A stretch of DNA of 64,000 nt from an uncultured bacterium (GTDB lineage Bacteria > Edwardsbacteria > AC1 > EtOH8), in the NCBI GenBank assembly GCA_937863685.1, contig CALMGM010000010.1, forward strand, positions 1 to 64,000. Direction: 5' to 3'. Position 1 is the first letter of the stretch. Every line of letters begins with the position of its first letter. A model generated the notes under the pieces. The model had not been told where the DNA came from. It did no database searches and worked only from the letters and a program-made list of their open reading frames with translations. This document shows, one piece after another, positions 19,497 to 59,963 of the stretch. The translations under genes and the position numbers were made by a program.

Positions 19497-19526
19497 TTGA
19501 CTTGTCTGTAATGTATAAAATAGGAT
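19497..19526 (+). promoter_or_regulatory. Promoter of SIR2-like gene, near-leaderless
   Basis: TTGACT (19497-19502), an 18-base spacer and TAGGAT (19521-19526). Only eight bases separate the -10 box from ATG 19535, so a start 6-7 bases past the -10 would leave a leader of about two bases. No Shine-Dalgarno sequence is present. Confidence 0.6.
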
Positions 19527-19534
19527 AGCTGTAT

Positions 19535-20716
19535 ATGGATAAATTAAAACGTATTTCTTTTTTATTCGGTTCCGGTATATCGATCCCGCTGGGTTTGCCG
19601 AATGTTAACGAAATAACAGAAAAGATTTTAGCCGATAAGAATCTTACCCCAAATTATGTTATAAGAAATCTTGAGGGAAATTACACTTTTGCTCGGATCG
19701 ATGATTGGAAAAGAGACGAAGATACTAATATTTATGTAAAGAACATTCTTTGTTTAATAAGAACAGTAAAAGATTACTTGGAAATAAACAGCGGGTTAAA
19801 TCCAAATTATGAAGATATATTCTATATTTTATCCCAAATAAAAGGTCATTTAAACGATAACAATAACCCTGCCATGATACCTTTTATAAAGGAAATAAGC
19901 GATAAATATTGCCTTGGTTCAGAAAATATATTTGATTTTAAAAAGATAGTAATAGAGGCATATTATTATATTCATGATCTCACGGAAGAAATGTTAAGGG
20001 TTCCGGGAAAACCGGATGAAACAAATAAATTAAGACTAATAAAGGAAATAATAGATAAAGCGCAAGATAGACATATTGACATCTTTACTTTAAATCACGA
20101 TCTTGTTTTGGAGGAGTATCTAAAACAATCTAAAATACAGTTTATTGACGGGTTTCACAAAGATAATAATAAAACATATGACTCTAACCTACTATATGAG
20201 GAGGAGACGCCAAGGCAAGTGCGGCTGGTGAAATTACATGGTTCGGTTGATTGGTATAGAATGATGTCGCTAAAAATAGAGTATCCACTTTTTGAATATA
20301 ACAAATGGGACAGGATAGGAGAACCCTGTCGTTATAATCAATCGACTAAAATAACAATTAGGCCTTTATTTTTAGTCGGGGCTGGTAATAAGTTGGCAGA
20401 TTATACATTGGATATATTTTTAGAGCTATACCGTTACTTTAAAACGTCATTGAAATATACCTACCGGATGGTTGTTTCGGGATACGGTTTTCGGGATACA
20501 GGCATAAATGATAAAATATATGATTGGCTTTTAGAATCAAAAGAACGTAAGTTGATTATAATTGATCCGAGCCCGGAAAAAATATATCGTAATGCACCAC
20601 AAAACATGATAGATTTATACAATTTTATTAAACAGGAAAAGAAAGGAAGGGTTAAAATTATAAAAAAGGGGTTTGAGGAAACTGATTATAGTGACGTAAA
20701 AATGTATTTATCGTAA
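19535..20716 (+). CDS. SIR2-like domain protein, possible defence NADase
   Basis: A 393-residue protein with SIR2-fold motifs: FLFGSGISIPLG (NAD phosphate loop, residues 10-20), FTLNHDLVLEE (Asn near residue 187), VKLHGSVDWYRM (His near residue 235) and VSGYGFRDTGINDKIYDWL near 312. This pattern fits the SIR2_2-type branch seen in bacterial defence proteins such as ThsA-like NADases rather than protein deacetylases. No zinc-binding Cys cluster is evident. It spans the SIR2 region with no obvious second effector domain. The DNA is visibly AT-rich against GC-rich neighbours, with a promoter of its own and a terminator after it, so it looks like an acquired single-gene unit. The defence role is inference. 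Confidence 0.75.
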   Translation: MDKLKRISFLFGSGISIPLGLPNVNEITEKILADKNLTPNYVIRNLEGNYTFARIDDWKRDEDTNIYVKNILCLIRTVKDYLEINSGLNPNYEDIFYILSQIKGHLNDNNNPAMIPFIKEISDKYCLGSENIFDFKKIVIEAYYYIHDLTEEMLRVPGKPDETNKLRLIKEIIDKAQDRHIDIFTLNHDLVLEEYLKQSKIQFIDGFHKDNNKTYDSNLLYEEETPRQVRLVKLHGSVDWYRMMSLKIEYPLFEYNKWDRIGEPCRYNQSTKITIRPLFLVGAGNKLADYTLDIFLELYRYFKTSLKYTYRMVVSGYGFRDTGINDKIYDWLLESKERKLIIIDPSPEKIYRNAPQNMIDLYNFIKQEKKGRVKIIKKGFEETDYSDVKMYLS

Positions 20717-20783: not shown

Positions 20784-23426
20784 CTACCTGATGACCATCA
20801 TTCTTTTGGTTGCCTTGAATGCTCCGGCGTCAATCTGATAAAAATAGATGCCGTTGGGCAAAGCAGCGGTGTTGTATCTTATGGAATATGCCCCGGCCGA
20901 TTGGTGTCCCTGGTCAAAACACTTCACCAGTTGCCCGGCAATATTATAGATATTCAGCCTGACATTGGCCGGGCCGGAAAGTTGGTAGCTCAGGCTGACC
21001 TGTTTGCCGGCCGGATTGGGGTAGGCATTGGCCAGGGAGAAAGACCTTATCTTTGGCTGCTCATCCGGCCGTCCGGCCACCCCGGCCCACCCGGCGCTGG
21101 AGGTCAGTATACCCCAGGTGACTGTCCCGACCGAGTCGGAGGAGGCCGGCCAGCGGCCGTAAATCCCTCCATCGCCATCGGCCAAAATAGCGAACCCGAT
21201 AGTGTCGGCATTTCCTACCGAGAGGCCGAGCCGGTCGAAGGGAACGGCATAGAAGGTTATAAAATGATCCTTGACCGAAAAATTATAACTCCATCCGGAG
21301 GGCGTCACTTTATCCCACTGATCCATGAGGCCGGTGAATTCCACCTGCTCCCCTTCGAAAGTGACCAGGAACCGGAAGTCGTCATCCTGTACTGCCGGGG
21401 TGCGGTCGAATTTTGTATCGAACATCAGGGAATGGCTGGTTATTTTGTAATCAGCATAATTAGGAGTTATCAATGCCAGATAAAGGGTATCGGCATTATA
21501 CTTGACCCAGAAGGTATCCACATTGTGGTATTTTTTGGCCTTGTCCCCCAATTCAAAGCTGTCGCGATAGGCATCGGCCCATTCTGCCGGCTCGATGTTT
21601 CCTTCAAAGTTAGGCACCGTGCCCCAGGGTACATCTATGATATATGCCCCGTTTCCGGCTAGGGATATTCTGTCCGGATTGTTGAGCGGGTCATTGGAGT
21701 AAATGCGCAGAGTGTCCAGATACTCCCCGGAGGAATTCGGTTTGAACCAAACGGCGACCGCAACGCTGTCGCCGGGGGCCAGTAATGAATCTGTCAAGGG
21801 ATCGATCCTAAAATAACCGGAACCGAAACGCAGGCTGTCTAGATCAAGGTCCAGGCTGCCGGTATTTTTTATATAAAGAGACGTCCAGGAAAGCGAGTCA
21901 TCCGGCTTGATATAACCGAAATCGTGCTGGTTCTCATTTGCCGCAATGGCGGCCACGCCCCATTTTTGGCTGGATTTCATCATTCCCCAGGTGCTGGGAT
22001 TCTCCCAATTGAAGGCGGAGGGCCAATAATTGCCGCCGGCTCCGGGGGCGAATGAATAGACAACGGCAGACATTCCGACGCTGTCCGTCGTGCCAGGTAC
22101 AATATCCAGCTTGGACAGGGCTATCTTCCATTCGGAGCACCACATTCCGGGCGAAGCCCCGTCAATGGCATTCCAGCCTGATATCGAGGCTGTCACCCAC
22201 CCAAACCCCGCCCCGATTCCTTCGGCTTGGTATCCGTCTATTTGAATGCGCAGCCTGTGATCGTCTTCTATTGGAAGAGTGGCCCGGTCATAATCGTTGT
22301 CGAAATACAATTGCTGCTGATTGCCGGCGAAACTGTCGGCTCCCTTGAACCCGGCGTAAAGGGTATCCCTATTGTATTTGAACCAGACGGTATCATTTAG
22401 AGTGGTAGTGTGCGGGGTGATGAAGGCGGCGTCCGTCCACTCTCCGGCCGACAGGACACCGTCAAAGGCCGGCTTGCTGCCGTAGGGAACGTCAACCACG
22501 GCGGCCGGCTCGACTCCGGTTCCGGACAAAATACATTGCCTGACGGAATTTACCGGATCATTGGTGGTCACGGTAAGGGTATCGGTATAAGATACGAACT
22601 GGTCGGGCTTGAATTTTATATTCACCACCTGGCTGTCGTTGGGATCCACATTGAAAGGCACCGAAGTCAGCAGGGTGAAGGGTTCGGATGAAACAGCCAG
22701 ACCACTGACGGTGAGGGTATAGCTACCGGTATTTTTCAGATAGATAGAGTTGCTAACGGCAGAATCCCCGGTATACACCGGCCCGAAATCAAAGACAGTA
22801 TCATTTATCGAAGCAGCGGGCATTCCCCACTTTGTAATAGAAGTGACCGCTTCCCAGCTTGAGGGTATGTTATAATTAACGCTGGCTGGCCACCAATATC
22901 CGGTGCCATCGACGTAGTTCGAAACGGCGAAGCCGAAGGTATCGGCTGTTCCCGGCGTCAACCCCAGTTTGGAATAGAATATTTTCCATTCCGCTGTCCA
23001 ATATCCCGTCCCGGTGCTGACCGAATCCACCCATCCGATGGGCTGGATCGGTACCGATTCCCAGGCCGTGCCGTTTCCGACCTTCTCATATCTTCCGCCG
23101 TCAATGAAACAAGATAATATATGGTCGTCGGTCTGGGGGGCGGTCAGGCGATCGTAATTGATGTCCAAAAGGATCCAGTTCAGACTGGTGGCGACGGTAT
23201 TGGGATTCTTTATCGCCATGAATATAGTGTCCTGGAAATATTTCAGCCATACCGAATCGGTCCCCCCGGAAGTAGTGAAGGTCTTGAGCGTGGCATCCTG
23301 CCATTCTCCCGGAGAGACCACTCCGTCAAAGACCGGCTTGCTGCCAAAACTTATGCTGGTTGCCGCCTGGGCCGGGTATTCGGCGAACAACAGGACAGCC
23401 AGGGTGATTAACAAATTAAGTCTCAT
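20784..23426 (-). CDS. Large secreted T9SS cargo with three CBM9-like and two anchor-D-like domains
   Basis: An 880-residue exported protein. It has a signal peptide (MRLNLLITLAVLLFAEYPAQAA), then three copies of a CBM9/DOMON-like unit opening with FGSKPVFDGVVSPGEW (about residue 27), YGSKPAFDGVLSAGEW (about 315) and WGTVPNFEGNIEPAEW (about 605). Between them are two Ig-like 'choice-of-anchor D' units (DFGPVYTGDSAVSNSIYLKN and DFGYIKPDDSLSWTSLYIKN). The C-terminus (NAYPNPAGKQVSL, IYNIAGQLVK, GIYFYQIDAG, final RMMVIR) is a type A T9SS sorting domain. AAGGAGG precedes the ATG. The ligand is unknown; CBM9-like folds often bind sugars. The preceding 124-residue gene, 18 bases away, may share its mRNA. 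Confidence 0.85.
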   Translation of the reverse strand: MRLNLLITLAVLLFAEYPAQAATSISFGSKPVFDGVVSPGEWQDATLKTFTTSGGTDSVWLKYFQDTIFMAIKNPNTVATSLNWILLDINYDRLTAPQTDDHILSCFIDGGRYEKVGNGTAWESVPIQPIGWVDSVSTGTGYWTAEWKIFYSKLGLTPGTADTFGFAVSNYVDGTGYWWPASVNYNIPSSWEAVTSITKWGMPAASINDTVFDFGPVYTGDSAVSNSIYLKNTGSYTLTVSGLAVSSEPFTLLTSVPFNVDPNDSQVVNIKFKPDQFVSYTDTLTVTTNDPVNSVRQCILSGTGVEPAAVVDVPYGSKPAFDGVLSAGEWTDAAFITPHTTTLNDTVWFKYNRDTLYAGFKGADSFAGNQQQLYFDNDYDRATLPIEDDHRLRIQIDGYQAEGIGAGFGWVTASISGWNAIDGASPGMWCSEWKIALSKLDIVPGTTDSVGMSAVVYSFAPGAGGNYWPSAFNWENPSTWGMMKSSQKWGVAAIAANENQHDFGYIKPDDSLSWTSLYIKNTGSLDLDLDSLRFGSGYFRIDPLTDSLLAPGDSVAVAVWFKPNSSGEYLDTLRIYSNDPLNNPDRISLAGNGAYIIDVPWGTVPNFEGNIEPAEWADAYRDSFELGDKAKKYHNVDTFWVKYNADTLYLALITPNYADYKITSHSLMFDTKFDRTPAVQDDDFRFLVTFEGEQVEFTGLMDQWDKVTPSGWSYNFSVKDHFITFYAVPFDRLGLSVGNADTIGFAILADGDGGIYGRWPASSDSVGTVTWGILTSSAGWAGVAGRPDEQPKIRSFSLANAYPNPAGKQVSLSYQLSGPANVRLNIYNIAGQLVKCFDQGHQSAGAYSIRYNTAALPNGIYFYQIDAGAFKATKRMMVIR

Positions 23427-23904: not shown

Positions 23905-26076
23905 TTAACTGGAACACTCCTTGTATAAGGCAATGGTCTCGGGACTGACATCCAATCCCAGATCCCTGCGCAAGGAGGTCCGGCAGTTTTGAAACTGTTT
24001 GGCTATAAGCTCCTTTCTGCCCAAGCGATGAAAGGCTGCCATCAATATACGGTGGGCTTCTTCCAGGCAGCGTTCCCGGGAAACGGCCAGCGATGCGTAT
24101 TTTACGGCATCATCCAGGCTGTTTTGTTTCAGAGACAACCCGGCCAGTGAGAGTAAAGCCTGAAAATACAGCTGCCGGAGCTGCTCCCGCGGACCTTCCA
24201 TCTCCACCGATCTGATATCCGGCAGGAAATCTCCCCGGTATATTTCCGTCGCTCGGCGGTAAAACTCTATGGCAGCATTCTGCTGACCGGTGATTTCGGC
24301 CTGTTTGCCCTTTCGCACATGCGTGCTCAGGTCGAGGAAGTCGATGGCAATGTCCTTTATATCCAAACGGTAGCAGCCACCCCTGAACTCCACGTATCTT
24401 GAATATTTCCCGTCCTTGATCCCCGGTTCAAAGACCCTGCGCAGCTCGGCCACCGCCACCTGAAGATTCAGCGCTGCCGCACTCAGACCTTTCTGGGGCC
24501 ACAGCATCAGGCTGATGACCTCGGCCGGGATGAACTGTTCGGAATCGTTCTGTGGGTTTTCTGATGCGGAAATATGACGCGATAACAGAATACCCAATAC
24601 CTGCCGGGAGGCGGTCCTCTTCCAGCGCTCAACCGTCCGTCCATTTATCGAGATACCCAAAGATCCCAGGGTGGTGATCTCCAGTCTGGTGCTGCCAATT
24701 GACCCGCCTGAATCAGCCGTGTCATCGCTAAATTTTTGACCCAGCTTGCTCAAGTACTTCGAGGAGCTTCTCGCTTTCTGATACCCTGCCAGTAGGTGCC
24801 TGAAATTATCGGGATGCTGCCCGTCGAAAAGGAAATCATAACCGTGTTTCTGGCAGAGCCTCAGGGTTTTAGAGAATGTCCGGCAGAACGAGGACTGTCT
24901 TTTTTGAGCCAGATATATCTCCGCCAGATTCAACAGAGCCAGTGCCTGCTTATACGACATGCCGTTCTTGGCGTAGACCTTAAGTAATTTCGAAGCGCAA
25001 TGCAGGGCCCCAGGCAGGTCCCTTCTGGCAAGGTGCACCCGGGAAAGAGTATATTCCGCTTGGGCGGCATCCAGCGGCCGCTCTGAAGATATCTTCTCCT
25101 CGGCCTGCCGGGCATATTTCAGGGAGAGGGAGAGGCTGCCCTGCAGCCGGTGGAGAGTGCTCAGGGCCGTAAGGCAGGAGAAATAATATGAGGTTTCATC
25201 TGAACTGTCGGCATTCTCCAAAGCGAATTTAAGGGTCTTTTCCGCTTCCGGGAACCGTCTTTGGTACATCTGGCATTCGCCTAGGTATATCCTGGCAGGT
25301 CCCAGAGCCATCCCCAGGCCGATCTTCTCGATCTCGGGTATGACCGAGGTCAATAAAAGCTCGGCTTTCTCCAGTTCGAACATCTCCAGATAAAGCGATG
25401 AAAGGTTCACCGCCGCCAGGCAGTAACTGCGCCGATTGTCGGAATCACGGTAAAAACGAAGGACCTCCTCTTTTTCCTTCCGGGCTTTCTCCAGCTCACC
25501 CAGCGTTTTGGTGATGGCCGAGGCATTGGCCAGGGTGCGGATCTGCCCTTCCTTCTCCCCGGCCCGGATATAGATATTCATCACCCGGGCGTAGATCTGC
25601 GATGCTTTCTTATGATCCAGCAGCCTCCAGTAGCTCCCGGCCATGGCGGCCAGAAGTCCGGCCCGGCCCCGGTAATCATTTTTGTCCAGGTATTTCAGGC
25701 CCTGCTGGCAGTCAGATATGGCTTTTTGGTTCTGCCCCATGTCCTGATGGATGTAAGAAAGGTAACGGTAGGCGGCGGAAAGGGATGATTGGTCCCGGGC
25801 TTTTTTTAAAACGGGTATGGCTGTGGTAAGATAGCGCAGGGCTGATTTGAGTTCTCCACTCTGGTAATCGGCATTGGCCGTGATAAGGATAAGCTTGGGA
25901 TGGCTGAAAAAATACTCTTTGGGGATCTGTGCCAAAAGCTTCTTAAGCTCCGCAAGCCTCCCCGGCTGAAGCAGGTCCCGGCTGTGTTCCATGAGCAATT
26001 TTACGGCTGGGTCAAACTGCTTTTGGCAAAGGTTTTCGTCGATCTGACAAAAGATATCAATTTTGCTTTTCAACAT
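23905..26076 (-). CDS. TPR-rich transcriptional activator with C-terminal winged helix and BTAD
   Basis: A 723-residue cytoplasmic regulator. Residues about 15-440 are helical tetratricopeptide-like repeats (e.g. QSGELKSALRYLTTAIPVL, YRYLSYIHQDMGQNQKAI). About 465-570 is an OmpR/SARP-type winged helix (LEITTLGSLGISINGRTV ... NLQVAVAELRRVFEP ... GGCYRLD). About 580-720 is a bacterial transcriptional activator domain (DFLDLSTHVRKGKQ ... RCLEEAHRILMAAFHRLG ... ELGLD-like RRDLGLDVSPET). In SARP proteins the DNA-binding part is N-terminal; here it follows the TPR region. It is divergent from the TetR gene and upstream of the cargo gene, so it may control that cargo. Its own promoter predicts a leaderless start. 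Confidence 0.85.
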   Translation of the reverse strand: MLKSKIDIFCQIDENLCQKQFDPAVKLLMEHSRDLLQPGRLAELKKLLAQIPKEYFFSHPKLILITANADYQSGELKSALRYLTTAIPVLKKARDQSSLSAAYRYLSYIHQDMGQNQKAISDCQQGLKYLDKNDYRGRAGLLAAMAGSYWRLLDHKKASQIYARVMNIYIRAGEKEGQIRTLANASAITKTLGELEKARKEKEEVLRFYRDSDNRRSYCLAAVNLSSLYLEMFELEKAELLLTSVIPEIEKIGLGMALGPARIYLGECQMYQRRFPEAEKTLKFALENADSSDETSYYFSCLTALSTLHRLQGSLSLSLKYARQAEEKISSERPLDAAQAEYTLSRVHLARRDLPGALHCASKLLKVYAKNGMSYKQALALLNLAEIYLAQKRQSSFCRTFSKTLRLCQKHGYDFLFDGQHPDNFRHLLAGYQKARSSSKYLSKLGQKFSDDTADSGGSIGSTRLEITTLGSLGISINGRTVERWKRTASRQVLGILLSRHISASENPQNDSEQFIPAEVISLMLWPQKGLSAAALNLQVAVAELRRVFEPGIKDGKYSRYVEFRGGCYRLDIKDIAIDFLDLSTHVRKGKQAEITGQQNAAIEFYRRATEIYRGDFLPDIRSVEMEGPREQLRQLYFQALLSLAGLSLKQNSLDDAVKYASLAVSRERCLEEAHRILMAAFHRLGRKELIAKQFQNCRTSLRRDLGLDVSPETIALYKECSS

Positions 26077-26082
26077 AGCTTA

Positions 26083-26112
26083 ATAGTAACTATTATTGCA
26101 CCGGGATGTCAA
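26083..26112 (-). promoter_or_regulatory. Promoter of the BTAD regulator, predicted leaderless
   Basis: On the reverse strand TTGACA (26112-26107), an 18-base spacer, TACTAT (26088-26083), then exactly six bases before the ATG at 26076. The expected +1 coincides with the A of the start codon. No Shine-Dalgarno is present. Confidence 0.65.
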
Positions 26113-26885: not shown

Positions 26886-26956
26886 AAACCCCTTCGGTCC
26901 GGTCCTTTTAGCTGTCGAAACTGTGAGAAATGGAAGTAAAACGAAAGGATTTCATC

Positions 26957-28468
26957 ATGACAAGGATTTTATGGGTATTCATGTTGTGCGGCTCGATCGT
27001 AGATCTGACCGTATTGCCCGCTGCCGGGCAAACGACTTGGGCAATGATTTATGGTGGCTCATATGATGACGTGTGCTATTCCGCCCGGCAAATTTCTGAA
27101 GGAGGGTTCGTAGGTACAGGGGTGACCTATTCTTATGGCAATCAGGGTCAGGTATATCTGTTCCGAACCGATTCACTGGGAAACCAGCTATGGGCGCGGG
27201 CGTTAGGAGGAGGCAGTGATGATGCTGGGCAATCAGTGCTGCAGACGAATGACGGAGGATTCCTGGTTGCCGGATGGACCAAATCATACGGACCAGGAAC
27301 GCCGACCTATGCTAATATTTATCTGATTAAGACGAATATTTCCGGCGATACTCTTTGGACAAAACGTTACGGTGGCGCGGAGGAAGACTGCGGTTACTCC
27401 TTGCAAACGACTACAGACGGTGGTTTCATCATTGCTGGCAGCACAAAATCGACCGGTGCCGGGGAGGAAGATATGTACTGCATCAAGACGGATTCCGCAG
27501 GTGATACGGCCTGGACCGGGGCATACGGCGGTGCGGCAACGGACAAGGCTCAAGCGATTGCTGGCGCTACAACCGGCGGATACCTGCTGGCGGGCAATAC
27601 CTTCTCCTTCGGGCCGGGAACTTCCGACAGCTCCAATGGATATCTTGTTCGAATTGATGATAATGGGGATACCCTGTGGACCCGGTTCTTTGGCGGAATC
27701 GGCAATGACGGTTTCCACGGGGTCTGTGCTGTGCCGGGCGGAGGCTTCGTCGCAGTTGGCTGGTCTTCGGGCAGCGGGGTTTCGGTGGATATGTTCCTCG
27801 TTCGAGTCAACGATAACGGCGACTCTCTGTGGACGAAACTTATCGGCGGAGCAGGGCATGATGACGGTTTCGGCGTCGAACCGACCTCTGACGGCGGGTT
27901 TGTTATTGGAGGTTTTACCGATTCATATGGCGCAGGCGGGGCCGATATTTATCTTGTTAAAATCGATTCGACAGGAGAGGTTCAGTGGACCAAGACCTTT
28001 GGCGGAGAAGAGTGGGATTTGGGACAATCAATCGAAACTACTGCAGATGGCAGGTTCATAATCGGGGGATTCACCTACTCCTTCGGGACAGGAACGCCAA
28101 CCCATTGCAATGCATATTTGATAAAAACCGACGGGGATGGAAACGTTGGCGTATCAGACCAGCCGCCCACAGCCGGAACCAGTGGCAGCAAAGACCAAAT
28201 AAAGATACAGACACGGCCAAATCCCTTTAAGCAAAACACAGAGATACAGTATCATCTACTCAACCGGGGAAATGTGACGTTAACTGTCTATAATATTTGC
28301 GGGCATTTGGTGAAAAGGCTGGTCAATCAGTTCCAGGAAGCAGGTGTCCATACGAGTAAATGGGACGGGAAGGATCAATACAATCGTTCGGTTGCTTCCG
28401 GCGTGTATCATATCCGATTGCAGGCCGGAAGGAGGTATGTGGCCAAGAAGGTGATTGTGGCACGATAA
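26957..28468 (+). CDS. Secreted repeat protein with T9SS sorting domain
   Basis: A 503-residue exported protein. The start at 26957 (MTRILWVFMLCGSIVD) is chosen for its GAAAGGA ribosome binding site and for placing the signal peptide at the N-terminus; a codon at 26930 is in frame upstream. After the signal peptide come about seven repeats of roughly 50-55 residues with the pattern GGFxxxGxTxSxGxGxxDxYLxKxDxxGDTLWTKxxGG (split here), a beta-propeller-like family common in T9SS cargo. The C-terminus (TRPNPFKQNTEIQYHL, VYNICGHLVKRL, GVYHIRLQAG, KKVIVAR) is a type A sorting domain. The ligand or partner is unknown. Confidence 0.82.
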   Translation: MTRILWVFMLCGSIVDLTVLPAAGQTTWAMIYGGSYDDVCYSARQISEGGFVGTGVTYSYGNQGQVYLFRTDSLGNQLWARALGGGSDDAGQSVLQTNDGGFLVAGWTKSYGPGTPTYANIYLIKTNISGDTLWTKRYGGAEEDCGYSLQTTTDGGFIIAGSTKSTGAGEEDMYCIKTDSAGDTAWTGAYGGAATDKAQAIAGATTGGYLLAGNTFSFGPGTSDSSNGYLVRIDDNGDTLWTRFFGGIGNDGFHGVCAVPGGGFVAVGWSSGSGVSVDMFLVRVNDNGDSLWTKLIGGAGHDDGFGVEPTSDGGFVIGGFTDSYGAGGADIYLVKIDSTGEVQWTKTFGGEEWDLGQSIETTADGRFIIGGFTYSFGTGTPTHCNAYLIKTDGDGNVGVSDQPPTAGTSGSKDQIKIQTRPNPFKQNTEIQYHLLNRGNVTLTVYNICGHLVKRLVNQFQEAGVHTSKWDGKDQYNRSVASGVYHIRLQAGRRYVAKKVIVAR

Positions 28469-38231: not shown

Positions 38232-38261
38232 TTGACATTATCGGCGCATAAAAAGTATAAT
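38232..38261 (+). promoter_or_regulatory. Consensus promoter placed for leaderless transcription
   Basis: TTGACA (38232-38237), an 18-base spacer and TATAAT (38256-38261), both perfect consensus. Six bases later is the ATG at 38268, so the expected +1 is the start codon itself. No Shine-Dalgarno is present. Confidence 0.8.
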
Positions 38262-38267
38262 CCATTC

Positions 38268-40325
38268 ATGAAATTGATCCTGATAATCATCATAGCGTCC
38301 CTGTCCTTTTGGTCGCTGGTAAGCGAAAAGGAAAGGATCGAACGCAAGCTGTGGCTGGGCTTTGCCGGAATACGGCTTTTGGTCATCATCTTGTTCACCT
38401 TGGTCCTATGGGGAAACCCCCGCGGCCTTAATATTTTTGCCAGGCAGGAGAACAGCATAGCCCTGGTGGTGGATGCCAGCAGAAGCATGGTCCAGCGTGA
38501 TGGGGCGCCGGAAAGCCGTTTTCAACGGGCCATGGAACTGATCGACATGATCCCGACCGGCTCCGGCATAAAAAAATATCTACACGACAGCAACGGCCTG
38601 CGGGAGATCTTGCCTGGTCTGCCGGTTGAGCATTCCGACAATACCGATTTGATAAAGATGATCAAAGCGGCGGTCTCATCAAAGCAGAGAGCGGTAGTGC
38701 TCTTTTCGGACGGCAATCATAATGCGGCGGGAAATCCAACGTCCGAGATCGCCGGCGGGGATGTCCCGATATACACCGTCGGCATCGGCCCGGAGGCGGA
38801 TAATCAATATCCCTCGATATCACGGATAAATTCACCCGAAGATGTATCACCGGGGCAGAAGGCTTCAATAGAACTGCAGTTGGACAATGTCAAGGATAGG
38901 GGCAGGCTGGTCTTGAGCGATAACCGGGAAAGAACCCTGCAACAGAAGGAATACTCCTCCGATAAAAAAATAATCGACCTGGAGGCGAGTCCCTCTGCAT
39001 TGGGGCTCAACCGCTATACGGTCAGCATGTTATCCGGGGGGGATACCATCGACCGGAAAAATGTGGCGATAAACGTCAAGAAAGACCGGATCAATGTTCT
39101 CTGCCTGTCGGGCGATCCGGGGTGGGATCTGCGGTTCATGCAGCAGACGGCGGCCGGTGCCAAAAATATCGAAATGGATCCGTATATTTGGAAAAACAAT
39201 AAATGGGAAAGCATCGGCGGTAAGGAGAAAAACCAGCAGGATCTGACAGATAAAATTAAAACCGCCGACGTGATCATTCTGCAGGATATCAAGGAAAGCA
39301 TGCTGGACAGGGAATTGGAGGGCGATATCGCCGCCCGGGCGCAGAACGGAGGGTGCGGGCTTTTAATAATGGGATTGGATTGGCTCTGGGCATTCCGCAG
39401 CCGCCAGCTGTTTGCCATTGCACCCATAATGCCTTCGTCTAATGGCGGAACCACCGAGGGAAGTGTTTTGCTGTCCAAATATTTTCCGGCCTCCGGCCTG
39501 TTCGATCGGCCCCTGGCCGAACAGATCGCTAAACGGATCGTAAAATATCCTCCATTGAGCATAAAGGGGAAATTCAAACAATTGACCGCCGATGCGGTGT
39601 TATTGGGAAGTATTGAAAACAAAAAAGAGAACATTCCTTTTTGGAGCCGTCGCTATTTTGGCCGGGGACGGGTGATGCAGATAACGGCATCAGCACTGTG
39701 GCCATGGGAAATGACCGCCCAGGGGATGCTGGGAGACAGCCTGGTATATTCCGCATTGATCACCGGGAGCTTTGGCTGGCTGGCCGGCATGGAGGACCAG
39801 AACATAACCCTGTCCACCGACCGCAGTTTTTATTATCCCGACGAAAAGATAATTTTCCAGGGGACCCTGCCGGAGGAAAACGGCCGGGCCCAGGGCCTGT
39901 ACTGGTCGGTTGAGATCAAAGGGAAAAAGGGCGTCCGGCAAAAACGGAGAATGTCCCAATGGGGACCGGGGAGTTATATATGCGACGTCGGGGCCCTGCC
40001 GCCGGACGAGTATAGCTATGGATCTACTCTTTTTTCAGATGGCAAGAAAATGACGGATCTTTCCGGTCGATTCTGGGTGGAGCCCTTCCCTTATCAGGAA
40101 AGGGAACGCTTCCAGAACCGGGAGTTGTTAAGGGAGATATCCCGGGTCACCCGGGGAAGATACTGGGATATCGATTCCTTGGCCGGCAATAATGATTGGC
40201 TGGATCAAATCAAGCCGCAGCCGGCGGCCAAGGGAAAAACTCCGGCCCCCTGGCTGCCCCTGCTGCTGATGGCCCTTCTGCTGGCCGGGGAATGGTACTG
40301 GCGGCGGCGCTCCGGCCTGAGCTGA
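38268..40325 (+). CDS. Membrane-anchored VWA / glutamine-amidotransferase-like protein
   Basis: A 685-residue membrane protein. ATG 38268 is used because the longer frame begins inside the -35 box. Two N-terminal helices (about residues 1-18 and 32-52) precede a von Willebrand A domain with an intact MIDAS-type motif (VVDASRSMVQRD, about 66-77, and VVLFSDGNHN near 145). The middle (about 265-470) resembles the class I amidotransferase-like fold of this family (LCLSGDPGWDLRFMQ). A C-terminal helix (about 655-675) ends in a basic tail. Such proteins usually sit beside MoxR ATPase, DUF58 and BatA/B genes; none are here, which is unusual. Confidence 0.75.
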   Translation: MKLILIIIIASLSFWSLVSEKERIERKLWLGFAGIRLLVIILFTLVLWGNPRGLNIFARQENSIALVVDASRSMVQRDGAPESRFQRAMELIDMIPTGSGIKKYLHDSNGLREILPGLPVEHSDNTDLIKMIKAAVSSKQRAVVLFSDGNHNAAGNPTSEIAGGDVPIYTVGIGPEADNQYPSISRINSPEDVSPGQKASIELQLDNVKDRGRLVLSDNRERTLQQKEYSSDKKIIDLEASPSALGLNRYTVSMLSGGDTIDRKNVAINVKKDRINVLCLSGDPGWDLRFMQQTAAGAKNIEMDPYIWKNNKWESIGGKEKNQQDLTDKIKTADVIILQDIKESMLDRELEGDIAARAQNGGCGLLIMGLDWLWAFRSRQLFAIAPIMPSSNGGTTEGSVLLSKYFPASGLFDRPLAEQIAKRIVKYPPLSIKGKFKQLTADAVLLGSIENKKENIPFWSRRYFGRGRVMQITASALWPWEMTAQGMLGDSLVYSALITGSFGWLAGMEDQNITLSTDRSFYYPDEKIIFQGTLPEENGRAQGLYWSVEIKGKKGVRQKRRMSQWGPGSYICDVGALPPDEYSYGSTLFSDGKKMTDLSGRFWVEPFPYQERERFQNRELLREISRVTRGRYWDIDSLAGNNDWLDQIKPQPAAKGKTPAPWLPLLLMALLLAGEWYWRRRSGLS

Positions 40326-50470: not shown

Positions 50471-51543
50471 CTGCCCAGGTGCCTTTCCAGATGTCCCACT
50501 ATCAGCCGGGCGGCCTGACCCTGGCCGTAAAGATTTGGATGGGCGGACGGCAGCTTCAATTTGGCCAGGGTTTTTAAGAGGCGTTTTTTATCCGGTCCCA
50601 CCAGATGATTCCATCCGGTTTTGACCGTCTCCACCCATTCGGTCTCGTGGCGCACGGTCAAACAGGGGGTTTTCAGCAGGTAGGCTTCCTTCTGAATGCC
50701 GCCGGAATCGGTGATCACCGCATAGGCGTCTGACTGCAGGGCCAGTGACTCCCGGTATCCCTGGGGCGGGATCAAGAGAATGTTCTCCGATCGTTTCAAT
50801 TCATTCCAAAGCGATACTTCCTTCAACTTCTTCTCGGTGCGGGGATGGACCGGGAAGACCACCTTTTTGTCGGATGAGATCAGGGCCTCCATTATAGACG
50901 ATAGATTATCCGGGTTGTCGGTATTCTCCGCCCGGTGAATGGTCACAAATAAGTATTGCTTTGCCACTAGATCCATCTTTTTGATCATCTTTGCCGTCTG
51001 ATCTTTGCTAGGGAGAATATCCTTCATGGCATCGTACATGATGTCGCCCACCAGGTAGAGACCACTGGTTATCCCCTCTTTCTTCAGATTCTTCACCGCA
51101 GTGTCAGTTGGGCAGAAATGTATATTCGACAGGTGGTCGGCCACCACCCGGTTGACCTCCTCCGGCATCATCCTGTTGAAGCTGCGCATGCCGGCCTCGA
51201 TATGGGCCAGCGGGATGTGCAGCTTGGCGGCTATCAGCGCCCCGGCCAGGGTGGAGTTGGTGTCACCAAAGATTATGACGGCATCGGGCTTTTGCTTGAG
51301 GACCACCGGCTCCAGTTTGGCCAGCATGGCAGCGGTCTGGGCCCCGTGCAGGCCTGAGCCGACCTCCAGGTTAAAATCGGGCCGGGGAATGTGCAGTTCA
51401 TTAAAAAACTGCCGGGACATGCCATAATCATAATGCTGACCGGTATGGACCAATATCTCCCTATGCCTCTTCCGGATCTCTTTGGAAAGCGGGGCGGCCT
51501 TGATGAATTGAGGGCGGGCGCCGATGACGGTCAGAAATTTCAT
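50467..51543 (-). CDS. wecB: UDP-N-acetylglucosamine 2-epimerase (non-hydrolysing)
   Basis: Interconverts UDP-GlcNAc and UDP-ManNAc for surface glycans. The 358 residues match WecB/MnaA. Motifs: LTVIGARPQFIKAAPLSKEI, VHTGQHYDYGMSRQFF, VIIFGDTNSTLAGALIAAK, HIEAGMRSFNRMMPEEVNR and TIHRAENTDN. All key regions are intact. It overlaps the T9SS cargo gene upstream and the glycosyltransferase downstream by four bases each, so cargo and glycan genes form one coupled unit. Confidence 0.94.
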   Translation of the reverse strand: MKFLTVIGARPQFIKAAPLSKEIRKRHREILVHTGQHYDYGMSRQFFNELHIPRPDFNLEVGSGLHGAQTAAMLAKLEPVVLKQKPDAVIIFGDTNSTLAGALIAAKLHIPLAHIEAGMRSFNRMMPEEVNRVVADHLSNIHFCPTDTAVKNLKKEGITSGLYLVGDIMYDAMKDILPSKDQTAKMIKKMDLVAKQYLFVTIHRAENTDNPDNLSSIMEALISSDKKVVFPVHPRTEKKLKEVSLWNELKRSENILLIPPQGYRESLALQSDAYAVITDSGGIQKEAYLLKTPCLTVRHETEWVETVKTGWNHLVGPDKKRLLKTLAKLKLPSAHPNLYGQGQAARLIVGHLERHLGR

Positions 51544-53705
51544 CTTACTATCACCAATTTGCAGATATAAGATTTTTGTCCGGACGACTGGATGCGGCAG
51601 AGGTAGATACCGGAGACCGGCCGCCGGGAAAATTCACTATCCGGACGGATGCTTAGGGTGTGGGCCGGGGCTGGCGGTCCGTAAAAAGTGCCGCAGGACC
51701 GTCCGTCCAGGGTATAGATGTCAATCCGGGCCTCGGTCGGCAGGTTGCTGAAATATATATAACTGTCTTTTGCCAAATTGAACGGATTGGGGGCGATATA
51801 AGATTGCTCAGGATTTACTTGGGTAACATCCATATGGCAGAAGAGGCTTAAGCCTTTGGCCGTGGCAATGTAAATATCATCGCCGGATCGATCGTGAGGA
51901 CAGGCGACAATTTGCTGGATATCATTGCTGATCAAAAAACTGTAATGTTGGTCGTAATTCGACCACTTCCCATCCCAGGTCAGCAAGGACAGTCCGTTCT
52001 CGGTCCCGATCCATTTATTGTCAGAGCGGTCTATGACTATCGATCGAATATCATTTCCCAGTATCGGGGAATTATTTGTTTGGAACACATCTGACCTGAG
52101 AATGCCGGCAACCGGGTCATACTCGGATCGGCAAAGGCCGTTCCCAGTTGCCAGCCAGACAATATTGCTGTTGTCAACCGCGATCTGGCGGATATTGATG
52201 TCCGGGATGCCGGACTCGACACCAAAATGCTCCCAGGTATTGCTTTGTGGCCTAAAGTATGTGAGGTCGTTGTAATACGACCCCAGCCACAGCCCGCCGG
52301 ACAGCTCCTTGGCGATGGAGATGATCCACATGGCATTAATATAGGCCCCGCGGGGCGAGGGGTCGACGTAGGTGGTCCATACGGAATCGTTCGGGGAGAC
52401 GGAAAATATGGCAAAATTATAGGCCGTGAAATATTTGGTGTTGTCCTTGTCAACCATGCCGGTCCAGACGCCGCAGCCGTAAGGCACCTGAGGCGTGGAG
52501 AAAATATTGGTAAGGCTGTCCTCGCTGTATTTCAGGACGTAAGAATTATTAAATCCGTCCCACCAGCCCAGGCCGATCCAGGCATTATTATTCTGATCCA
52601 CCGTTATGGAGGTCAACGGGATCCCCGATATGGGGTTTGTAAAAGTACGCCAGGTATTGTTTTTATAATTGCAGGCCAGCCGATTGCCGTCGATGGCCCA
52701 AAAGGCGCCGGTTTTTGAAACTGATATCTGTTTCACATAATTGCTGGCAATGCCGGGAAAGGTGTAATTATTCCAGCTTCCGCCGGCATAACGGCAGAGA
52801 CCGCCGGCACTGCCGGCCCATAACCTTCGATCTCCATCAATCATCAATGAAAATACATTGTAGTTCAACAGCCCGGGGCTGATGTCGCTCAGGACATTCT
52901 GATGCCAGAGTTTTACTCCGTTATTGGTGGCAAAGAACAGCGAGTCTCCGACCTGGGCAATAGCTCTTACCTGATTGCTTAATCCCGGGATCCTCTGCCA
53001 AGCCCCGCCCACCAGTCTGGCCGCACCGTTGGCGGTGCCTATAATTGACAATGTATCTGTCAGCAGGATGCATCTGATATCCGATGACAAGCCATCATAG
53101 TAACTGAAAGTGAACCAGTTACTGATATTGCCGATCGAGCTCAAAGAAGGTATTTTTACAATGCTTAAACCCTGGTCGGTCGCGATCCAAAGCGAATCGT
53201 TTCTTGTTCCCAGCGCCTGAGTGCTGTTGCCCAACGGCCAACCCTGCTGGGTCATCAAGGAAAACCAAGAGGATTGATTGCCGTAGGAAATAGAACCGTT
53301 TCCCCCGGCGTAAATGTTCTGCCCGTTGGCGGCCACGCACAAGGCGGTATCCGAGGCCAGGCCGTCATTTGATGTGAAAACAGAAAAATTCGTGCCGGCC
53401 GAATCCAGTCTGGCCAGCCCTCCGCCCAGGGTGCCGATCCACTTATTGTGACGGGAATCCAATATCACCGAGGAGGCCTCAATATACGGCAGGCCGTCCA
53501 CATTGGTATAGTGCTTGATCAAAACAGTATCAGTTGATGAAAAGGAGAATATCCCGCCGGGCGTGGCTCCCCAGATGATATTGCCTCCCGGCTGGAAAGC
53601 CATCTGGGAAACATTATTGAAATTGGTATAACTTATCCACTGCTGGGCCTGGGATGCCAGGCAGATGATAAGCAGGTATGATATTGAAAGGAAAATCTTT
53701 TTCAT
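51540..53705 (-). CDS. Secreted beta-propeller protein with T9SS sorting domain
   Basis: A 721-residue exported protein. It has a signal peptide (KKIFLSISYLLIICLASQAQ), then about ten propeller blades with two-component-regulator-propeller character (e.g. GLPYIEASSVILDSRHNKWI, GTLGGGLARLD, DGLASDTALCVAANG, DRSDNKWIGTENGLSLLTW). The tail (IAPNPFNLAKDSYIYF, DIYTLDGRSCG, GIYLCRIQSSG, ending VIVR) is a sorting domain. There is no kinase domain, so this is a propeller cargo and not a hybrid sensor. It is the first gene of the five-gene reverse operon and appears to start at its own +1 (see promoter). Confidence 0.82.
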   Translation of the reverse strand: MKKIFLSISYLLIICLASQAQQWISYTNFNNVSQMAFQPGGNIIWGATPGGIFSFSSTDTVLIKHYTNVDGLPYIEASSVILDSRHNKWIGTLGGGLARLDSAGTNFSVFTSNDGLASDTALCVAANGQNIYAGGNGSISYGNQSSWFSLMTQQGWPLGNSTQALGTRNDSLWIATDQGLSIVKIPSLSSIGNISNWFTFSYYDGLSSDIRCILLTDTLSIIGTANGAARLVGGAWQRIPGLSNQVRAIAQVGDSLFFATNNGVKLWHQNVLSDISPGLLNYNVFSLMIDGDRRLWAGSAGGLCRYAGGSWNNYTFPGIASNYVKQISVSKTGAFWAIDGNRLACNYKNNTWRTFTNPISGIPLTSITVDQNNNAWIGLGWWDGFNNSYVLKYSEDSLTNIFSTPQVPYGCGVWTGMVDKDNTKYFTAYNFAIFSVSPNDSVWTTYVDPSPRGAYINAMWIISIAKELSGGLWLGSYYNDLTYFRPQSNTWEHFGVESGIPDINIRQIAVDNSNIVWLATGNGLCRSEYDPVAGILRSDVFQTNNSPILGNDIRSIVIDRSDNKWIGTENGLSLLTWDGKWSNYDQHYSFLISNDIQQIVACPHDRSGDDIYIATAKGLSLFCHMDVTQVNPEQSYIAPNPFNLAKDSYIYFSNLPTEARIDIYTLDGRSCGTFYGPPAPAHTLSIRPDSEFSRRPVSGIYLCRIQSSGQKSYICKLVIVR

Positions 53706-53711
53706 GACTGA

Positions 53712-53741
53712 ATATTACCTTAAGTGGGCCTTTAAAGTCAA
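53712..53741 (-). promoter_or_regulatory. Promoter of the reverse operon, predicted leaderless
   Basis: On the reverse strand TTGACT (53741-53736), an 18-base spacer, TAATAT (53717-53712), then exactly six bases before ATG 53705. No Shine-Dalgarno is present. Confidence 0.7.
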
Positions 53742-53801: not shown

Positions 53802-53831
53802 TTGAAATACTAAAGCCACCTGTGATAACAT
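53802..53831 (+). promoter_or_regulatory. Promoter of the FAD reductase operon, near-leaderless
   Basis: TTGAAA (53802-53807), an 18-base spacer and TAACAT (53826-53831), followed by nine bases before ATG 53841. A TG extension (TGTG) sits just before the -10 box. There is no Shine-Dalgarno. Confidence 0.5.
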
Positions 53832-53840
53832 AGCAATACT

Positions 53841-55019
53841 ATGTTCAAATCAGATTCTTACGACGTTATAGTGGTGGGGGGCGGGCCGGCCGGGTCCATG
53901 GCCGCCAAAGAGATAGCCCAAGCCGGGCATTCCGTCCTGATGGTGGAAAAGCACCGGGAGATCGGCATCCCCCTGTGCTGCGCCGAGGCCACCAGCCTGC
54001 GGAGCCTGGGGCTGTTCATGAAGCCCGATCCCAAATGGGTGGCGGCACCCATCAACGGGGCCGTCCTCTATTCCCCGGACGGGACCGAGGTGGCGGTTCC
54101 CTGGGCCGGGGTGGGGGTGGTGCTGGAGCGCAAGATCTTCGACCGCCACCTGGCCGGGCTGGCCGGAGCCGCCGGGGCAGAGGTGATGGTCAACACCGAG
54201 GCGGCATCGGTCAAAATGAACGGCGAATCTGCAGAATCGGTAACATTAATATCCGGCAATGAAACCAAACAGATAAAATGCCGGGTGGTTATAGGCGCCG
54301 ACGGGGTGGAATCCCTGATCGGGGCCTGGGCCGGGATGGATACCCGGCTGGAGCCTGGGCAATTTCACAGCTGCGCCCAATACCTGATGTCCAATGTGGG
54401 CGGTTCCCAGGACATGGTCCGCTTCTGGGTGGGCCGGGATATTGCGCCGGGAGGCTATCTGTGGATATTTCCCAAGGGTGGCGGACTGGCCAACGTGGGG
54501 CTGGGTATCGTAGCATCGCTGGCCGGACAGAAAAAGCCTGTTCAGTATCTTGATGAATTCATCGCCAAAAATCTGCCCGGGGCCAAAGTGATCGAAACCA
54601 TGGTGGGAGGCACGCCGGCCCTGGGATCCGATCACCCGATGGTCAGGGGCAATGTCCTGCTGGCCGGTGATGCCGCCCGGCTGACAGATCCTCTTTCTGG
54701 CGCCGGCATCGCCATCGCCATGGCTTCGGGGACTCTGGCCGGAAGGCTGACCGTCGAATATCTTGAGACCAACGACATTTCACAACTTAAGAGATACCCC
54801 AAGGAATGGTGGTCCGGCCCCTGGAAGGACCTTAAATTTCACCACCTGGTGCGGGAGGTGTTTTTAAAACTGTCCGACCAGGAGATGGACCGGATCGCCA
54901 GACTGCTGGTCAATATCCTGGTGGGAAAGGACCCGGCCCAGATAAATCCCATCGACGTGGCCAAGACGGTCATCAAATCCGATCCGGGAATTTTATTATT
55001 GGGAAGGCACCTGTTGTGA
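53841..55019 (+). CDS. Geranylgeranyl reductase family FAD-dependent oxidoreductase
   Basis: A 392-residue flavoprotein. The FAD-binding motif DVIVVGGGPAGSMAAKEIA is at residues 8-26, GREIG-like HREIGIPLCCAE follows near residue 45, a mid-chain VVIGADGVESLIGAW near 150 and GDAARLTDPLSGAGIAIAM near 280 bind the rest of FAD. The family includes geranylgeranyl reductases (archaeal lipids, chlorophyll) and related isoprenoid reductases; in a bacterium the substrate may be a quinone or polyprenyl lipid. The TPR gene begins inside its stop (GTGA), so the two are translationally coupled. Confidence 0.85.
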   Translation: MFKSDSYDVIVVGGGPAGSMAAKEIAQAGHSVLMVEKHREIGIPLCCAEATSLRSLGLFMKPDPKWVAAPINGAVLYSPDGTEVAVPWAGVGVVLERKIFDRHLAGLAGAAGAEVMVNTEAASVKMNGESAESVTLISGNETKQIKCRVVIGADGVESLIGAWAGMDTRLEPGQFHSCAQYLMSNVGGSQDMVRFWVGRDIAPGGYLWIFPKGGGLANVGLGIVASLAGQKKPVQYLDEFIAKNLPGAKVIETMVGGTPALGSDHPMVRGNVLLAGDAARLTDPLSGAGIAIAMASGTLAGRLTVEYLETNDISQLKRYPKEWWSGPWKDLKFHHLVREVFLKLSDQEMDRIARLLVNILVGKDPAQINPIDVAKTVIKSDPGILLLGRHLL

Positions 55020-57454: not shown

Positions 57455-58621
57455 ATGAGAATTGTTTTATTGTCGGTTTTAGTCGTAGTGACCGCAAATG
57501 CTGTTTTTGCCGATAGCTGGACAACGCCGGGGGAATTGCCGACACTGGATGATCATAACTGGGAGTGGTCTATGCCATCCATCTCGGGGAACGGCAATCG
57601 CCTTTATTTTGCATCGGATAGCGATGGAATAGCAGATGGGCCTAAGCAATTATATTATGTTGAATGGCTCGACACTATGTGGTCAAATAAGATATGGTTG
57701 AGCGATAATATAAATACGCCGGAAAGATATACCTTTTCACCCTGCATAGGCTATGATGATACAACTTTATATTTTACGCGGGATTATCATGACACCATCT
57801 ATATTTCATATTTTACAGCCGGTATATGGCAGATACCTGTCCCTTTGGATAGTGCAATAAATAAATATGGCGCAGGGGGGCCGGCAATTTCCAAAGATGG
57901 CAAGAAATTATATTTTTCTTCCGACCGACCCGGCGGATATGGCGGTCTAGATATTTGGTGTTCTTTCAATAATGTCGGCGTTTGGGAAGAACCGGAAAAT
58001 CTTGGACCTGGCGTGAATACTTCGTTTAATGAGAACTCCCCCAGCATATCCGGAAATGATTCGGATTTTGTATTTTATCGCAATTCAGGTGCCATTGAAG
58101 ATACAATGAACATATGGTTCATAAAGCTTGGGGCAATTGATAGTGCAATATGTCTGTTTTGTGGCCATTCCGGACCGTACCCTTATTTTGATTCATACTG
58201 GTACGGGGATCCATGCATAAGTTGGGATGGGCAGAGAATCTACCTGACCTATGCCCCATTCAATACCGAGCCGGCTAATTATATCTATGTCTCCAGCCGT
58301 GTGACGGGCGTTACGGGAAGGCCGGAGAACAGCAGTTCCAAAACAACCTTGAGTCTATTCCCGAATTTCCCTAATCCGTTCAATCAGTTTACGAGCATCA
58401 GTTATCAGTTGCCGGTATCGGGGCATGTCAATCTATCCGTATACAACATAGCCGGGCAATTAGTAAGAACCCTGGCAAATGAGGAAAAGACTACCGGAAA
58501 ATACCAGGCGACATGGAATGGCCAAGATAATAACAATCGAAAGGCAGCCCAAGGGGTCTATTTCTGTAAATTGGAATCAGGTAATGGCCAGTTAATACAA
58601 AAAATAGTGCTGATAAAATAG
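57455..58621 (+). CDS. Secreted PD40/WD40-like repeat protein with T9SS sorting domain
   Basis: A 388-residue exported protein with signal peptide RIVLLSVLVVVTANAVFA. The middle has WD40-like PD40 repeats (MPSISGNGNRLYFASDSDG, PAISKDGKKLYFSSDRPGG, GGLDIWCSF, SPSISGNDSDFVFYRNSG, ISWDGQRIYLTYA), a blade type seen in TolB-like and T9SS cargo proteins. The tail (FPNFPNPFNQFTSISYQL, VYNIAGQLVRTL, NGQDNNNRKAAQGVYFCKLE) is a sorting domain. AGGAGG precedes the ATG. Its 3' end is nearly identical in DNA to that of the next gene. Confidence 0.83.
   Translation: MRIVLLSVLVVVTANAVFADSWTTPGELPTLDDHNWEWSMPSISGNGNRLYFASDSDGIADGPKQLYYVEWLDTMWSNKIWLSDNINTPERYTFSPCIGYDDTTLYFTRDYHDTIYISYFTAGIWQIPVPLDSAINKYGAGGPAISKDGKKLYFSSDRPGGYGGLDIWCSFNNVGVWEEPENLGPGVNTSFNENSPSISGNDSDFVFYRNSGAIEDTMNIWFIKLGAIDSAICLFCGHSGPYPYFDSYWYGDPCISWDGQRIYLTYAPFNTEPANYIYVSSRVTGVTGRPENSSSKTTLSLFPNFPNPFNQFTSISYQLPVSGHVNLSVYNIAGQLVRTLANEEKTTGKYQATWNGQDNNNRKAAQGVYFCKLESGNGQLIQKIVLIK
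58441..58586 (+). repeat. Direct repeat copy 1 encoding the sorting domain
   Basis: By hand alignment this 146-base stretch matches 59783-59928 at 133 positions with no gaps, including a run of about 57 identical bases. The identity is limited to the sorting-domain end; the rest of the two proteins are unrelated. Confidence 0.85.
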
Positions 58622-58631
58622 AGGTGGTAAA

Positions 58632-59963
58632 ATGAAAATAAGAATAATTTTAATTACATTGTCATTGTCATTGCTTTTCTGTGGCAGGGCTTTTGCTGTT
58701 GGCAGCTGGACGGCGCAGGACAGCACAACCAAAAGATCGCTGTTTTCGATCTTTTTCCATGATGAACAGCACGGTTGGGCCTTGTCGATGGATACGTTGC
58801 TAAGGACTACAAATGGCGGACAAAATTGGACGGCCTCCCCAACCGTATTTTCATCGGATATACCGCACTCTATGGATATTTGGTTCACTGGCACCGATAC
58901 CGGATACATGATAAAAAATAATAAAATCTACTACACTATAAACAGTGGTTTGAATTGGAGCATACAAGACACCGGTTACAAGTATTCTGCTTTAAGAAAG
59001 GTCTTTTTTATCAACCATCAAAAAGGCTGGGCCGTGGGGGGGACACATATATACACAATACCTATTTACCCTGGCGATACCAGCTTTATGACACGACAAA
59101 TTATGAAAACCGTTGATGGTATTAATTGGACAACAGTTCTTTTTAATTCTTCAAACAATCCGAACATGTCCCCATTAAATAGCATAGCTTTTATGGATTC
59201 AAACAACGGAGTGGCGGTGGGAGATTACGGCAATGTAATTGTAACTACGGACGGGGGGAGCAGTTGGAAGGACGGCAATGGTGGAACTACTCAAGGTTTA
59301 TACAAGGTTGCAGTGGTTGGTCCCGGGAAATATTATGCCGTAGGTTATAACGGAACGATTATAAGCTCAGTGGATTCTGGCAAAACCTGGATACAATATC
59401 CAAGCGGCACTGGTGCTTGGCTTAATGACGTTAAATTTGTTGATTCCTTAAACGGTTGGATTGTCGGTGATAGCGGTAAAATATTCTACACTTCCGATGG
59501 GGGGAACAATTGGCTACCGCAAAGTGCCGGAACAAATGCAGATATTAATTCTATAGCAGCTCTTGCATTAGATAAAGCTTGGGCGGTTGCCGGGAACTGG
59601 CCGGGCAGCCATGTTGATAACGGGAAAATATATTATTATTCTGAATCCGTAGGCGTTTCAATAAATAACCCGGTTATAACCGAACCAAGCAATTTTAGTG
59701 TTTCAAACTTTCCCAATCCATTTATTAATAAAACAGTTATTTCATATTCCTTGCCATGTAAAGGTAAAACCTCTTTAATAATATACAACATTGCCGGGCA
59801 ATTGGTAAGAACCCTGGTAAATGAGGAAAAGATGACCGGAAAATACCATACGGTCTGGAATGGCCAAGATAATAACAATCGAAAGGCAGCCCAAGGGGTC
59901 TATTTCTGTAAACTGGAATCGGGCAATGTCAAAATCGTTAACAAAATGATACTGGCAAAATAG
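58632..59963 (+). CDS. Secreted Ycf48/BNR-like propeller protein with T9SS sorting domain
   Basis: A 443-residue exported protein. It has a signal peptide (MKIRIILITLSLSLLFCGRAFA), then propeller repeats of the Ycf48/sialidase-BNR type (SLFSIFFHDEQHGWALS, LLRTTNGGQNWTASP, KVFFINHQKGWAVGGTH, VTTDGGSSWKDG, VKFVDSLNGWIVGDSGK). The tail (FPNPFINKTVISYSL, IYNIAGQLVRTLVNEEK, AAQGVYFCKLE) is a sorting domain closely matching the previous gene. It starts ten bases after that gene behind AGGTGG, so both are co-transcribed. The ligand is unknown. Confidence 0.83.
   Translation: MKIRIILITLSLSLLFCGRAFAVGSWTAQDSTTKRSLFSIFFHDEQHGWALSMDTLLRTTNGGQNWTASPTVFSSDIPHSMDIWFTGTDTGYMIKNNKIYYTINSGLNWSIQDTGYKYSALRKVFFINHQKGWAVGGTHIYTIPIYPGDTSFMTRQIMKTVDGINWTTVLFNSSNNPNMSPLNSIAFMDSNNGVAVGDYGNVIVTTDGGSSWKDGNGGTTQGLYKVAVVGPGKYYAVGYNGTIISSVDSGKTWIQYPSGTGAWLNDVKFVDSLNGWIVGDSGKIFYTSDGGNNWLPQSAGTNADINSIAALALDKAWAVAGNWPGSHVDNGKIYYYSESVGVSINNPVITEPSNFSVSNFPNPFINKTVISYSLPCKGKTSLIIYNIAGQLVRTLVNEEKMTGKYHTVWNGQDNNNRKAAQGVYFCKLESGNVKIVNKMILAK
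59783..59928 (+). repeat. Direct repeat copy 2 encoding the sorting domain
   Basis: The partner of 58441-58586. High identity confined to the C-terminal module suggests recent module duplication or gene conversion between tandem cargo genes. Confidence 0.85.

Follow-up and report, generated by a model that had tools for sequence, protein, structure and literature searches.

Leaderless genes have been recognized in many bacterial groups, where they make up a few percent of genes or more, from a TANNNT element some 12 bp before the start codon together with the lack of a Shine-Dalgarno (SD) sequence (Zheng 2011, PMC3160421). That survey was based on the RefSeq genomes of 2010, and Edwardsbacteria are absent from its table of groups (PMC3160421). 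In Mycobacterium tuberculosis, TANNNT lies 7–12 bp before the start, C is favoured at −1 of mapped transcription starts, a −35 consensus is lacking, and 26% of the genes with a primary start are leaderless (PMC3898074). In Deinococcus-Thermus, a −10 element a few bp before the open reading frame (ORF) drives leaderless expression, with spacing requirements demonstrated experimentally, and in Deinococcus this element alone suffices while the −35 only enhances (PMC12340547). No report of leaderless initiation in Edwardsbacteria was found in the literature searched.

The Edwardsbacteria gene starts described here resemble the TA-led genes of the RefSeq survey (PMC3160421) in having a −10 box at −12 to −7 in excess over controls, but the class is small (about 2%) and becomes visible only with the −35 element. 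They share with M. tuberculosis the preference for C at −1, differing from it in the small size of the class, in the need for the −35 to see the class and in the frequent TG before the −10. Compared with Deinococcus, the Edwardsbacteria cases are bipartite promoters.

The sequence analysed, referred to below as the window, is a stretch of 64,000 nucleotides with 54% G+C (C10:1-64000) from a 2.72-Mb genome in 14 contigs; judged by GyrA, its nearest relative with a name is Candidatus Edwardsbacteria isolate DeMMO3_1, at 96% identity. An earlier sequence-only reading of the window had listed five gene starts with a −35/−10 pair, an 18-base spacer and a start codon placed where transcription should begin, and every letter of these five sequences was found as written. 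The promoters and genes concerned are as follows.

19497..19526, + strand: doubtful promoter TTGACT-18-TAGGAT of the 19535 gene, 8 bases before the ATG
19535..20716, + strand: the 19535 gene behind this doubtful promoter, encoding a SIR2_2-domain protein (Pfam SIR2_2, 2e-9)
23905..26076, − strand: the 26076 gene, with a predicted leaderless mRNA, encoding a 723-aa TPR/BTAD (bacterial transcriptional activator domain) protein (Pfam BTAD, 3e-20) whose ortholog aligns from residue 1
26083..26088, − strand: −10 TACTAT of the 26076 gene, at distance 6 from the ATG; G001 has TATCAT here, the 18-6 spacing being unchanged and the flanks diverged
26107..26112, − strand: −35 TTGACA of the 26076 gene; identical in G001
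38232..38237, + strand: −35 TTGACA of the 38268 gene; the congeners G001, G002 and G003 have TTGAC[A/T] here, as do G006, G007 and G008 of another genus
38256..38261, + strand: −10 TATAAT of the 38268 gene, 18 bp past the −35 and 6 bases before the ATG; identical, at distance 6, in seven relatives
38268..40325, + strand: the 38268 gene, with a predicted leaderless mRNA, encoding a 685-aa protein behind TTGACA-18-TATAAT-6-ATG
51540..53705, − strand: the 53705 gene, with a predicted leaderless mRNA, encoding a 721-aa protein with a two-component-regulator propeller repeat (Pfam Reg_prop, 5e-10)
53712..53717, − strand: −10 TAATAT of the 53705 gene, 6 bases before the ATG with an 18-bp spacer; identical, with spacing unchanged, in three congeners
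53736..53741, − strand: −35 TTGACT of the 53705 gene; identical in three congeners
53802..53831, + strand: promoter TTGAAA-18-TAACAT of the 53841 gene, 9 bases before the ATG, with a TG one base before the −10 (extended −10)
53841..55019, + strand: the 53841 gene, predicted to be near-leaderless, encoding a geranylgeranyl-reductase-type FAD oxidoreductase (Pfam GGR_cat, 2e-26)

The three exact sites (26076, 38268 and 53705) and the other two, which the earlier reading had called looser, are not of equal quality. The promoter of the 53841 gene is conserved, with the −10 and the 9-base distance kept in three congeners and the weaker −35 appearing as TTGAAA in two of them and TTGCAA in one, and its mRNA probably has a leader of 2–3 nt. 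The 19535 site is ambiguous, as the TAGGAT read as its −10 contains AGGA and may instead be an SD site 9 bases from the ATG; no ortholog of this gene was found within the congener stretches that were read. The reported lack of SD sequences accordingly stands for four of the five starts, 19535 being the one that carries AGGA.

Orthologs of the 38268 gene occur in all ten Edwardsbacteria genomes, and a Pfam search with its protein returned no family; from a general impression of the N terminus and a DASRSM stretch, we presume a resemblance to VWA-type membrane proteins. The 53705 and 53841 genes are divergent, and the 135 bp that they share hold both promoters back to back, one for a predicted leaderless and the other for a near-leaderless mRNA; both promoters are kept in three congeners. 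Several proteins encoded in the window carry type IX secretion C-terminal sorting domains (20784-23426, 26930-28468, 57455-58621 and 58632-59963).

A genome-wide scan without an excess of the geometry was one of two results that, by the sequence-only reading, would refute it; the scan was run and the excess is present. The strict pattern was defined as TTGACN-17/18-TANNNT-6-ATG and the reversed motif served as control. In the genome of the window, the exact 18-6 geometry has 9 matches against 0 for the reversed motif, and with spacers of 17–18 and distances of 0–12 there are 116 matches against 20. Alongside these genome-wide pattern searches, we examined an 864-kb sample (20 kb per 30 kb of contig C5, together with the window), starting from promoters instead of gene calls and requiring that the ATG open an ORF of at least 60 codons. 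Of 146 TTGACN-17/18-TANNNT strings in this sample, 12 have an ORF-opening ATG exactly 6 bases downstream (7 with a 17-bp and 5 with an 18-bp spacer), compared with about 0.9 at each other distance under the same ORF requirement (Poisson P for 12 at distance 6 about 3e-10) and none at distance 6 for the reversed motif with spacers of 17 or 18. An excess of raw matches at distance 4 was gone once an ORF of 60 codons was demanded.

A gene-based test, in which a scored promoter model was applied to 607 called genes with approximate start calls, gave a peak of 9–14 genes at distance 6 over a background of 0.9–4.3 per distance at score thresholds of 8–13. The excess over distances 5–8 amounts to about 10–12 of the 607 genes, or 2%, and lowering the promoter-score threshold left it at no more than about 12. 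When TANNNT alone was aligned to start codons, distance 6 did not stand out, and the −10 is therefore not enough to reveal the class; TANNNT is common because the noncoding DNA here has about 41% G+C.

With spacers of 17 and 18 taken together, the genome has 21 strict matches, about 16 of which lie at real gene starts as judged by reading. The class comes to roughly 2% of genes and about 16 strict cases. Three of these fall in one window (P about 0.006), a window chosen on account of these cases. About 5 of the 21 are false, C4:1656 and C9:185839 among them; each lies ahead of a gene that has an SD of its own. We rejected C9:185839 as a leaderless start, as it precedes a gene with an AGGAGG site, and C4:1656, a match kept between genera, as a leaderless leader peptide, as this promoter belongs to a gene 25 bases on with a GGAGAG site. 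The promoter at C4:1656-1740 has a palindrome, AGCATATGCT, over the start site, 25 bases before the SD-led gene that starts MPRPSKFRKVHHRPEAVYF, with similar matches in G002, G003 and G005; the AGCATATGCT palindrome is possibly the operator of a self-regulated gene.

The same excess is found throughout the phylum. Ten Edwardsbacteria genomes have 11–24 matches each, 190 in total, versus 9 for the reversed motif and 45 for a second control in which the same promoter lies 14 bases from the ATG, and the excess is present in all ten. The promoters are of the sigma-70 type, with a TTGACA-like −35, a TATAAT-like −10 and a spacer of 17 ± 1, and in strict matches pooled from four genomes the positions left free in the search pattern recover TATAAT, the extended −10 TG and a pyrimidine, mostly C, at −1. 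C occupies −1 in 49% of strict matches versus 24% of other called starts, a figure pooled over four genomes, two of them apparently richer in G+C, so that C may be inflated. GTG at distance 6 gave 32 matches against 9 reversed, 8 of the 32 being ATGTG; AUG dominates among the distance-6 starts, and GUG would also be possible.

The median excess is 7.2 matches per Mb in Edwardsbacteria and about 1.1 in a set of 135 other genomes, 9 of which reach 6 excess matches per Mb. As the geometry is present in other genomes, few of them as dense, it is not peculiar to Edwardsbacteria. Other lineages with a strong 17/18-6 excess are represented by G029, G038, G049, G095 and G140; G038 has 32 matches versus 1 reversed and 4 at 14 bases.

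The geometry is also conserved between species and, for some genes, between genera. In three congeneric species, the −35, the −10, the spacer length and the 6-base distance are kept for both 38268 and 53705. In three species of another genus, where the 38268 protein is about 30% identical, TTGACT-17/18-TATAAT-6-ATG is kept before this gene. A radical-SAM gene has TATAAT-6-ATG in each of four genera, its flanks differing considerably between them and its −35 being degenerate in one genus. RlmN has the geometry in one genus only, an instance of turnover. The start codons are credible because protein similarity begins at Met1.

Leaderless transcription at the three exact sites is very likely. We hold with good confidence that these sites are sigma-70-type promoters transcribed from the A of the ATG, that their leaderless mRNAs are translated without an SD, and that they belong to a small genome-wide class. 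RNA polymerase would start at the A of the start codon by ordinary sigma-70-type initiation, and the mRNA would be read from its 5′-terminal AUG, without an SD, by the leaderless (70S) route. The −35/−10 pairs, the sharp 6-base distance and its conservation are features of the DNA, and it is from these that the position of the 5′ end and 70S translation are predicted.

It is very improbable that the sites instead reflect −35/−10-like strings falling randomly before start codons in AT-rich intergenic DNA. Such an explanation gains something from the way in which the sites were picked by eye, from the abundance of TANNNT and its missing peak, and from the false strict matches; however, the excess over reversed and distance-shifted controls in ten of ten genomes and the conservation across species and genera stand against it, and for the three exact sites as a class chance is already refuted. 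The promoters could be real and the transcripts begin with leaders of 1–5 nt or at several start points, which we consider unlikely. RNA polymerase can shift its start point by a few bases relative to the −10, which counts for such short leaders, and the 53841 (9 bases) and 19535 (8 bases) sites would fit, as would some matches at 7–9. Against this, the ORF-filtered peak is at 6 only, with 0–2 cases at 5, 7 and 8, and the base before the ATG favours C or T, as at a −1 position. The 5′ end may also lie a few bases up- or downstream, or a second upstream promoter may give a leadered mRNA.

The sequence-only reading had further hinted that accessory or surface genes have a mode of expression of their own, marked by an 18-base spacer, a suggestion to which we give very little credence. 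It was drawn from the window, where all three exact sites have 18-bp spacers and the genes encode a propeller protein, a BTAD protein and an orphan protein. The 17-bp spacer is nevertheless the commoner one, with 54 of the 76 strict matches pooled from four genomes (22 have 18 bp) and 7 of the 12 in the ORF-filtered sample. Judged from the gene list, core enzymes carry the geometry too: the set in this genome includes RlmN, a PgsA-like CDP-alcohol phosphatidyltransferase, a PP-loop ATPase, PilM, an ECF-type sigma factor, a zinc-ribbon protein, a lytic transglycosylase, a radical-SAM protein, DUF502, a 4Fe-4S protein and two BTAD proteins. The leaderless-type genes do not look specially accessory or surface. 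What does carry over from the earlier reading, besides the three exact sites, is its central claim of a recurring geometry from which leaderless mRNAs are predicted, as the geometry recurs across the genome and the phylum far above controls.

The absence of an SD at these starts is largely forced, because a −10 box at −12 to −7 occupies the SD site. The contrast drawn earlier with leadered genes, said to have mostly AGGAG-type sites, was overstated: GGAG, GAGG or AGGA occurs at about −16 to −4 in 16 of the 47 called genes of the window, and in 225 of the 607 sampled genes versus 54 of 607 at a control position, counts that rest on approximate start calls and miss sites closer to the ATG. SD motifs peak 5–8 bases before called starts, and relatives have the normal anti-SD CACCTCCTTTC at the 3′ end of their 16S, the 16S of this genome being cut by a contig end. 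The anti-SD in relatives and the SD peak together indicate that SD-led and leaderless routes coexist.

A conserved, apparently noncoding stretch outside the window (G000 C10:204499-204809) contains GTTGGAATCGGAAGTAATCGCC and is scored as part of a bacterial 16S rRNA (model positions 926-1370, in 152 nt). Copies with 80–86% identical DNA are present in this genome (G000), in G003 and in G006, just before a small gene starting MSRNTENTGFRCAHCGN. When 601 bases of this stretch were searched alone, no RNA family reached its threshold. The stretch looks like a structured RNA that mimics rRNA.

The mechanism proposed for these genes is already known; what would be new is the lineage and the apparent dependence on a full bipartite promoter. 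These predictions extend leaderless initiation to the candidate phylum Edwardsbacteria. They also offer, in TTGAC-17/18-TANNNT-6-ATG, a simple rule to fix start codons where SD- or coding-based callers may misplace them; a rough start caller had set the start of the 26076 gene 84 bases too far in. More tentatively, and with somewhat less than even confidence, we suggest that the leaderless genes of Edwardsbacteria form a small retained set, ancient in part, that unlike those of Actinobacteria and Deinococcota they need a full bipartite promoter, often with an extended −10, and that for some of these genes the geometry is older than the split between the genera of the phylum.
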